A stretch of 64,000 nt of DNA from Sulfolobus sp. A20 (GTDB lineage: Archaea; Thermoproteota; Thermoprotei_A; Sulfolobales; Sulfolobaceae), in the NCBI RefSeq assembly GCF_001719125.1, contig NZ_CP017006.1:1612001-1676000 (forward strand), given 5' to 3'. How positions within the stretch are numbered: position 1 is the first letter of the stretch; each line of letters opens with the position of its first letter. Shown piece after piece: positions 6,985-37,580 of this stretch. Position numbers and translations under genes: made by a program. The notes beneath the pieces were generated by a model. It was not told the DNA's origin. It was given only the letters and a program-made list of their open reading frames with translations, and searched no databases.

Positions 6985-7078
6985 GAGCCTCTTGAAAGCT
7001 CCTTTAACGAGAATCAATAAGGGAGACCAATGAGGCACCATAAGGGAACCTCCATCCTTTAAGGCGGAAGGAGGTCAG
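6985..7078 (+). mobile_element. Solo right-end fragment of an IS200/IS605 (tnpB) element
   Basis: Ends in GGCGGAAGGAGGTCAG (7063-7078), the same kind of end seen in the other tnpB-derived fragments of this window. It is preceded by a short hairpin around CCTTTAAGG. Reading in frame just before the hairpin gives a peptide tail of the type G-T-S-x-L-stop, as expected when a tnpB stop codon overlaps the element's end. Only about 95 bp can be recognised, the left limit is vague, and no transposase remains. Confidence 0.5.
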
Positions 7079-10594: not shown

Positions 10595-10848
10595 CTAACT
10601 TCCTCCTTGCCTTAAAAGGTGGAAGTTCCGCTGAGGTTTTTGACGTCATCTCTCTTTATGGAGATTACTCCATTTGAAGAGAATAGGAAAGAAAGAGGCT
10701 TCCTCAACACGTTAATAACTTTTTCCCCTAACCTCATCATATTCGTAGCACGATTAACGTCACTACTGTTAAGCTTATGATAAAGGAAAGGCAAGCCTAG
10801 CCCTTCATGGAATGTGAAGAACGTTGAGGAAAGCCTAAAAAAGGACAA
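10595..10848 (-). pseudogene. Remnant of tnpB (IS200/IS605 OrfB): C-terminal end plus right end
   Basis: Read on the minus strand, a broken ORF (10612-10848) carries SSDVNRATNMMRLGEKV. This resembles the last RuvC motif of TnpB proteins, where Asp-x-x-Asn is conserved. It ends in the tail L-S-G-T-S-T-F-stop. The stop overlaps a hairpin (CCACCTTTTAAGG) and the end string AAGGAGGAAGTTAG, matching the right-end consensus of the other fragments here. Only roughly the last 70-80 codons can be read, and the first part of the ORF may belong to the neighbouring opposite-strand element. No full transposase can be reconstructed. Confidence 0.5.
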
Positions 10849-11036
10849 ATGAGAATGTTCCTCGATACATATCTTTAATCACCAAGGAGGGTAGGGAAAA
10901 GGGGTAATGTGAGTGAGAACCTAGCCTTTGCTGGACGAATTGAGTTTGTGTTAAAAACGCCCACTAGCTATGAAGGTGGTAAACCTATGAATATTCTTAG
11001 GTGAACCATCGCCTTTCAAGACGCAGAGGAGGTCAG
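10822..11036 (+). mobile_element. tnpB-less IS605-type right-end/omega-RNA-like element
   Basis: Homologous by eye to the elements at 34371-34667 and 37177-37445. Shared parts in order: hairpin arms GTTGAGGAA...TTCCTCGAT, ACCAAGGAGG, AAAACGCCCACTAG, TATGAAGGTGGTAAACCTATGAA, and the end GGAGGTCAG at 11028-11036. The longer shared strings are broken by single differences between copies. It abuts the minus-strand tnpB remnant head to head. No coding sequence is intact. It probably descends from the 3' part of a tnpB element, the part that encodes the guide RNA scaffold. Confidence 0.5.
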
Positions 11037-11245
11037 ATATTTCGAAATATGCTTAATATAAAAAACATATTTTATTATATGTATACTTTGCACTAAAAGA
11101 TATTTATTCTCTCTAATCAAATTTTTATTAACCTACAATATAAATTTTATATATCTATATTGAAATGTGTAATTTTAAAAAACTTCTTTTAAATCCAAAC
11201 TTCTTTTACAAAAGCTTATAATCTCACCATCATATATATAATGTT

Positions 11246-34290: not shown

Positions 34291-34370
34291 GACATTCTGA
34301 CATTAACTTTGTAACATAATAAAACTTCCCTTGAAGGTTGCTTAAATTATTATGACAAAACGAGCGATAA

Positions 34371-34667
34371 GCCTCATCTTTTAAGGCGGGGTAAAAGTTC
34401 TTATTTTCGGTAAAGGAATGTTATTGAGGGGAGGAAGACCCAAAAGGGGCTAAACGTGTGTGTCCCTCCTCAATACATGTCCCCGAGTACCAAGGAGGTG
34501 GAGTGTCACCCAAGAGATAGGGATAATTTGGCTGAAGACCCAGCTAATGGTCTACCAATGGACAAATGAAGCGTGATGGGTGTCAAAAACGCCCACTAGT
34601 CATGAAGGTGATAAACCTGTGAACCGCTCTAGGGGAACCCTCGCCCTTTAGGGTGGGGTGAAAGTCG
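34371..34667 (+). mobile_element. tnpB-less IS605-type element (about 300 bp), copy 1
   Basis: Bounded on the left by a hairpin around CATCTTTTAAGGCGGGG (from 34374) and on the right by CCCTTTAGGGTGGGG followed by the end GTGAAAGTCG (34658-34667). Inside it has the hairpin arms TATTGAGG...CCTCAATA, then ACCAAGGAGG, AAAACGCCCACTAG and GTGAACCGCTCTA. Read in frame at the right end, codons give S-R-G-T-L-A-L-stop, a tnpB-like tail. There is no transposase. Homologous to 37177-37445 and 10822-11036. Size and structure resemble the non-autonomous Sulfolobus elements derived from IS200/IS605, such as SMN1. Confidence 0.6.
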
Positions 34668-34758
34668 GATTCACCAGAATAAAGCTTAAATTAGAAAACT
34701 TGCGAGATGCTTTATCCTTAAAAGATTTTTTAGATTACTTTAACAACATATAATATTC

Positions 34759-37087: not shown

Positions 37088-37176
37088 TCCCTTTAATTTT
37101 CATCAATAATTATTACCCGTTTAGCCTAAAATAGTGTTAAAGATATCATGGTCGCTTTGATAAAAAAAGAACAGCA

Positions 37177-37445
37177 AACCTCGCCTTTTAAGGCAGGGTA
37201 ATGTTTTTAGTGAAGGATTATTATTGAGGAAAGTCAAAAATGAGTAGTGAGAACGTGTCCTTCCTCCTCAATACTAGTCTCGAGGAGGGTGAGGAAAAAG
37301 GGATAGGGGTAATTTAGCTGAAGAACTATCACTGGACAAGTAAAGTGGTTGGTAATGTCCACTAGCTGTGAAGCGATGAAAAAGAAGTTAGTTAACCATA
37401 AACATGTGAACCGCTCTAAGGGAACCCTCTAGGGGAGAAGGTCAG
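37177..37445 (+). mobile_element. tnpB-less IS605-type element (about 270 bp), copy 2
   Basis: Left hairpin CCTCGCCTTTTAAGGCAGGG (from 37179) and right end CTCTAGGGGAGAAGGTCAG (37427-37445). Shared with copy 1 at 34371: hairpin arms TATTGAGG...CCTCAATA, GGATAGGGGTAATTTAGCTG (variant in copy 1), CCACTAG, GTGAACCGCTCTA. It has a small insertion before the right end and several point changes, so the two copies are old or independently derived. No transposase. It lies in the spacer between the pterin genes and the aminotransferase gene. Confidence 0.58.
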
Positions 37446-37580
37446 TACTATATATAAAGTAGAGTTTGCCTCTAGACTCTACTGACAACTTTTTCACACT
37501 CTTGCACAATCTAGATAAGCTGATGCAGGACTAAGCACTTTTCAAATACACTTTTTAATCTTAAGTTAGGAGAAGTAATT

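Follow-up and report, generated by a model that had tools for sequence, protein, structure and literature searches.

The window analysed here is a stretch of 64,000 nt (positions 1,612,001-1,676,000 of the contig) in the 2,688,317-bp genome of Sulfolobus sp. A20. It contains three short elements of the IS200/IS605 type, here called solo elements, whose right ends resemble the part of tnpB that encodes omega-RNA (Table 1). With the target motif included, their true boundaries are 34353-34668 (solo element 1, the 34371 copy), 37158-37445 (solo element 2, the 37177 copy) and 10778-11036 (solo element 3, the 10822 copy), which is wider than first given. An Rfam scan of the window at gathering thresholds returned no match. 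Solo element 3 starts exactly at the edge of a TnpB remnant on the - strand (10624-10779), which belongs to another A20 group and matches the TnpB of locus L009 at 58%. In addition, a right-end-like hairpin ending in GGTCAG, without an omega-RNA scaffold, is found on the + strand at 7024-7077.

Table 1. Parts of the three solo elements, numbered from the first nucleotide of the window.
Feature	Position	Strand	Basis or remark
TGAC target motif (putative TAM), solo element 1	34353-34356	+	TGAC found before the left end of complete elements and of most solos
Left end, solo element 1	34357-34420	+	left-end alignment
TATA-like box AAAGTTCTTATTTT, solo element 1	34395-34408	+	about 15-25 nt ahead of P1
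P1 hairpin (TATTGAGG arms), solo element 1	34422-34475	+	fold; P1 covariation over 33 elements
Omega-RNA scaffold / right end (from tnpB 3' end), solo element 1	34474-34668	+	nhmmer E=5e-42
Putative guide (flank) ATTCACCAGAATAAAGCTTA, solo element 1	34669-34688	+	adjoins right end
TGAT target motif (decayed TGAC), solo element 2	37158-37161	+	read against aligned left ends
Left end, solo element 2	37162-37222	+	left-end alignment
P1 hairpin, shortened, solo element 2	37223-37274	+	
Omega-RNA scaffold / right end, decayed, ends GGTCAG, solo element 2	37274-37445	+	nhmmer E=2e-31
Putative guide TACTATATATAAAGTAGAGT, solo element 2	37446-37465	+	
TGAT target motif, adjoining another tnpB remnant, solo element 3	10778-10781	+	direct reading
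Left end and reduced P1, solo element 3	10782-10865	+	
Omega-RNA scaffold / right end, strongly decayed, ends GGTCAG, solo element 3	10866-11036	+	nhmmer E=9e-27
Putative guide, solo element 3	11037-11056	+	position only

The initial annotation had described these as IS200/IS605 elements that lack tnpB, have a right end of the omega-RNA type and share a series of ordered motifs. All the motifs were found at the places given, with a resemblance far beyond chance, and homology to the 3' ends of complete elements bears out the assignment. The GGTCAG-type ending also attributed to all three is seen in the 37177 and 10822 copies but not in the 34371 copy, whose right cleavage motif is GTCGG, mutated from GTCAG. 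Because of this mutated end, the guide of solo element 1 would begin one position later than the proposed start immediately after 34667, while the start proposed after 37445 stands. The tnpB-tail peptide exists as a short local stretch only, the reading frame being interrupted over the region derived from tnpB.

It should be noted that the three window copies rank among the less intact of their family in this genome. Solo element 1 retains P1 and much of the scaffold, which is matched by covariance model R1 at E=5e-33, and its fold compared with shuffles gives z=-2.15 on the + strand and -0.69 on the - strand. The 37177 and 10822 copies are more decayed and both have lost much structure, the fold of the former being no better than that of shuffles (z=+0.46). 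The corresponding value for a better-preserved copy, L006, is z=-2.56.

Profile and tree work recovered about 20 full or partial copies in the A20 genome, among them close relatives of the 34371 element (best E=2e-54), and the well-preserved L006, used as a query, found matches in 25 of the 31 Sulfolobaceae genomes. Many of these matches are the tnpB 3' end and right end of complete IS200/IS605 elements carrying both tnpA and tnpB; similarly, annotated tnpB genes of the virus SMV1 and of the plasmids pHVE14 and pMGB1 are matched at their 3' ends by the 3' ~194 nt of a better-kept copy. The tnpA of pHVE14 is annotated as ISSis2 family. Complete elements begin after TGAC (TTGACAAATGAACGACAAGCCTCGCC...) and finish in ...GGTCAG. 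The solos show the same TGAC...GTCAG ends, with flanks that are unrelated from copy to copy, and a solo is therefore composed of a left end, the hairpin P1 and the tnpB 3' end with the right end. Multiple copies with such precise boundaries are present in A20 (about 20) and in two other genomes (11 in G023 and nine in G030). Sequence comparison indicates that the solos are deletion derivatives of an ISSis2-like IS200/IS605 transposon containing tnpA and tnpB. Translation in the parental frame is open up to a stop near the normal place in 16 of 17 tnpB-linked copies versus 3 of 40 solos.

Still smaller elements of about 50 bp, consisting of the termini only, occur in A20; the loci noted for them are L006, L008, L019, L028, L030, L031 and L079. 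In these, the left and right ends are fused around one palindrome, as in the 52-bp PATEs of Haloquadratum, and several carry a TTTAC motif on the left. A different rearrangement was observed at L036 (G014), L039 and L110 (G012) and L049 (G015), where the right-end hairpin is broken at one common point by CGGTAGAYC..., as if another element preferentially inserts there. Several of the new CRISPR spacers of S. solfataricus P2 are known to match the omega-RNA/right-end part of the pMGB1 and SMV1 copies (PMC3839810, Table 7).

P1 is a hairpin upstream of the tnpB tail, and the TATTGAGG arms form its outer strands. Judged by location and core motif, its counterpart in the parent is a hairpin within the stretch of tnpB that codes for the zinc ribbon (TGCGGGGAAGCCC...GTGTCCCCGCA). 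In the parent element some 330 nt separate P1 from the right end; in the solos the coding spacer that divides P1 from the scaffold has shrunk from roughly 40-45 nt to a few nucleotides. The P1 stems differ between genomes yet pair (GGAGGAGGGAAGCC/GTGTCCCTCCTCC in A20, GCGTGAGGAAACCC/GTGTCCTCATGC in G023, GTGCGGGGAAGCCC/GTGTCCCCGCAC in G030), and the same holds between solos and complete elements, whose stems differ on both sides. Over 33 distinct elements, two-sided changes were seen at 14 of the 16 pairs. They amount to 102 two-sided cells versus 51.2±5.4 in shuffled data, with a covariation score of 0.428 versus 0.213±0.017 (0/500), with the provisos that the apical motif served as a manual anchor in aligning the arms and that relatedness inflates the shuffle test. 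Sliding the arms, a control free of this inflation, gave a score of at most 0.220. RNAalifold applied to the A20 copies as aligned by MAFFT alone gave almost no consensus because gaps spoiled P1, and anchoring at the apical motif resolved this.

In most copies, direct reading of the left end located a TATA-like box, for example AAAGTTTTTAA, at a distance of some 20-35 nt ahead of P1. This promoter-like box sits just before the RNA, from which we infer that the solos would be transcribed. The solos of G012, G020 and G029 have GTGTCCCC-GTAA-GGGGATGCCC-loop-GGGC in place of P1, i.e. the same strands in reversed order, and a simpler version is found in G017 and G009. Since the 3' arm in complete copies can fold on itself, this form may be a local substitute, and not a true permutation.

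Covariation extends into the scaffold. For helix P2c, two-sided changes numbered 18 in complete copies (4.6 in shuffles) and 16 in solos (3.1 in shuffles); in the solos, P3 had 4 versus 0.8 and P5 had 7 versus 3.9. Within A20 alone the scaffold helices are retained with no clear excess over shuffles, several copies carry one-sided deletions, and only P1 is convincing. Read on the + strand, the non-Watson-Crick cells of the scaffold helices of solos comprise 193 G-U and 34 A-C, an excess that fits a structure formed by RNA of the + strand. A GACC/GGCC sequence in the P3 loop is complementary to the 3' GGTC in most copies, as would be required for an ISDra2-like pseudoknot, and because this loop is nearly invariant no covariation was seen for that pairing. 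Near the 3' end, the long-range P4 pairing and a local hairpin compete for one GGCGGT strand. Absence of compensatory pairing with the omega-RNAs of tnpB-linked copies had been named in the initial annotation as what would speak against a guide RNA; a conserved, covarying structure is in fact common to solos and tnpB-linked copies, most strongly at P1 and P2c, so that this objection falls. The solos also share with omega-RNA genes their origin from the tnpB 3' end and right end and a guide position, defined by position only, immediately 3' of it. Of 197 Sulfolobales genomes scanned with the covariance model of the scaffold, 57 contain the RNA, including three (G176, G102 and G157) that have several RNA copies each and no cognate TnpB at E<=1e-25.

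In a tree of 75 right ends, 33 rows from A20 (G000), G010, G023 and G003 form a solo-only clade (support 96/84) that covers several genera. Other solos adjoin tnpB-linked copies, some of them from the same genome (G030, G012, G020), and, given the starred branches, the tnpB-linked label must have changed at least five times. The topology indicates that solos arose repeatedly.

No Y1 TnpA at all was found in the A20 genome, nor any TnpB of the cognate type at E<=1e-40. The seven OrfB hits of A20 are all decayed or of another group; TnpBs of that group have about 34-48% identity to the cognate TnpB, and their right end shares only the terminal hairpin with the solos. The longest A20 OrfB, L009 (at 1,445,601), is missing its N-terminal part, which is located upstream in another frame. 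Y1 TnpA is likewise absent from G023, G010, G022, G019, G003 and G014, and the only TnpB matches in G023 are of about 51%, confined to the N-terminal part. Y1 TnpA is present in G030, G012, G017 and G020. In G030 the nine solos are nearly identical and coexist with complete elements, and the genome carries seven Y1 TnpA genes as well as several intact TnpBs, including the cognate one. By eye, the ISSis2-type TnpB (L063-L065) reads IIGYP at the expected RuvC-II glutamate motif, which possibly points to a rearranged catalytic site. The idea that the guide RNAs of solos are used in trans by a TnpB located elsewhere thus has no candidate partners within A20 itself, and appears most plausible in genomes like G030, since solos and complete elements occur there together.

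A search of viruses for matches to the flanks had also been proposed, and for the 34371 and 37177 copies it yielded nothing beyond chance. The guide of solo element 1 had no exact 18-nt match in viral contigs, while that of solo element 2 had seven; none of these follows TGAC, and they were taken as chance matches because of this and of the AT-rich DNA. Comparison of the flanks revealed no guide shared among solo copies. A search within the genus for the empty site of the 37177 element found its flanks not to be syntenic in relatives.

IS200/IS605 elements are moved in single-stranded form by TnpA, and their retention is promoted by TnpB, which together with the omega-RNA cleaves the empty site. 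On balance, we think that the solos are probably PATE/MITE-like elements selected for a complete omega-RNA and probably served in trans by the TnpA and TnpB of other elements, the A20 copies being relics of this arrangement. Deletion of tnpA and most of tnpB from an ISSis2-like parent would have joined a left end with a promoter-like box to a complete omega-RNA gene (P1, helices P2-P5 and the right-end hairpin), with the flanking sequence as its guide. Such a solo would be moved by TnpA supplied by a complete element, a virus or a plasmid. The solo's own promoter would drive synthesis of the omega-RNA; a TnpB likewise supplied in trans would bind this RNA and cleave the TGAC+guide site left empty, causing the solo to be copied back and retained. 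A20 now lacks the helpers, and its copies are decaying. Selection by TnpB-driven retention would explain why the RNA fold is kept though the protein frame is lost. Mobility alone does not explain some 250 nt of RNA structure, considering that terminal-only elements of about 50 bp exist and that 52-bp ones appear to be mobilised in Haloquadratum (PMC3119063); retention by a TnpB in trans does account for it, and is therefore the preferred reading.

The main rival, which we regard as unlikely, is that the solos are passive relics, i.e. internal deletions of the PATE/MITE type whose fold is inherited from the parent's omega-RNA and lost its function along with tnpB. There is a precedent in the Haloquadratum PATE HqIRS71, where a portion of the tnpB C-terminal region survives although the ORFs are disrupted (PMC3119063), and both the decay of the window copies (the fold of 37177, the GTCGG end of 34371) and the lack of helpers in A20 fit it. 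Mere inheritance, however, does not readily produce P1 stems that have changed on both sides relative to complete elements and still pair, a P1 that is kept after removal of the coding stretch separating it from the scaffold, or a solo-only clade extending over genera. It is improbable that the solo RNAs are kept for host or element regulation, for instance to guide nuclease-dead TnpB-like proteins or to titrate TnpB by competition: truncated TnpB ORFs do persist in A20, where solos far outnumber long tnpB ORFs, but these TnpBs belong to the divergent group described above, and the solo copies decay independently and have no guide in common. More improbable still is a role at the DNA level, with hairpins acting in TnpA recognition or strand choice, because, although IS200/IS605 transposition through single-stranded DNA with hairpin ends is established and the G-U/A-C asymmetry would equally fit a single-stranded + strand of DNA, the terminal-only elements of A20 and Haloquadratum indicate that internal helices are unnecessary for mobility, and the internal structure agrees with that of tnpB's omega-RNA region.

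Within the preferred reading, selection for an omega-RNA served in trans, the function of P1 deserves comment. In the ISDra2 structure the omega-RNA is disordered over its far 5' part (nt -231 to -117), and a 5'-trimmed version has been tested; 116 nt make up the scaffold proper (PMC10097598). As P1 lies upstream of the region matching this scaffold proper, it may be dispensable for TnpB, and may serve another role, e.g. in RNA stability or processing.

Compared with the ISSis2-like elements of pHVE14, pMGB1 and SMV1, the solos have the same ends, omega-RNA scaffold region and guide position, but they lack tnpA and nearly all of tnpB, have lost the frame and the coding spacer, and carry a P1 sequence replaced by a different pairing one. 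SisTnpB1 of S. islandicus provides the point of comparison for an ISSis2-like omega-RNA (PMC10640517). With no transposase gene, IS200/IS605 ends and subterminal palindromes, the solos fall among IS200/IS605-derived MITEs. They are like the PATEs of Haloquadratum walsbyi, which are transposase-free deletion derivatives without terminal inverted repeats and with IS605-type palindromes near their termini, but PATEs are not described as guide-RNA genes in PMC3119063, whereas the RNA fold of the solos covaries. SMN1, which is about 320 bp long and mobilised by ISC1733, and SMN2 are also Sulfolobus elements of similar size thought to be mobilised in trans by an IS200/IS605 TnpA, SMN1 being likened to the solos by its description (PMC3718332, PMC3839810). 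SMN2 was rejected as the same element, as it has no sequence similarity to the solos. Standalone trans omega-RNAs of IscB were reportedly described by Altae-Tran and colleagues in 2021; there, as here, the guide RNA is encoded apart from the nuclease, which is however IscB and not TnpB.

A more far-reaching view, which we offer tentatively, is that guide-RNA-only mobile elements may form a long-lived class in Sulfolobales, made up of ends, promoter and omega-RNA, of repeated origin, in some lineages with an apparently circularly permuted P1, and parasitic on other elements, viral and conjugative-plasmid ones included, for both TnpA and TnpB. If trans use is real, TnpB would serve nuclease-less relatives besides its own transposon, and a guide-RNA gene would be separated from its nuclease as with the trans omega-RNAs of IscB or with CRISPR arrays and Cas12. 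The solos, with the coding part stripped and the RNA kept, would then represent a natural test of what an omega-RNA requires, and genomes with both solos and complete elements, such as G030, would offer a system for measuring trans use.
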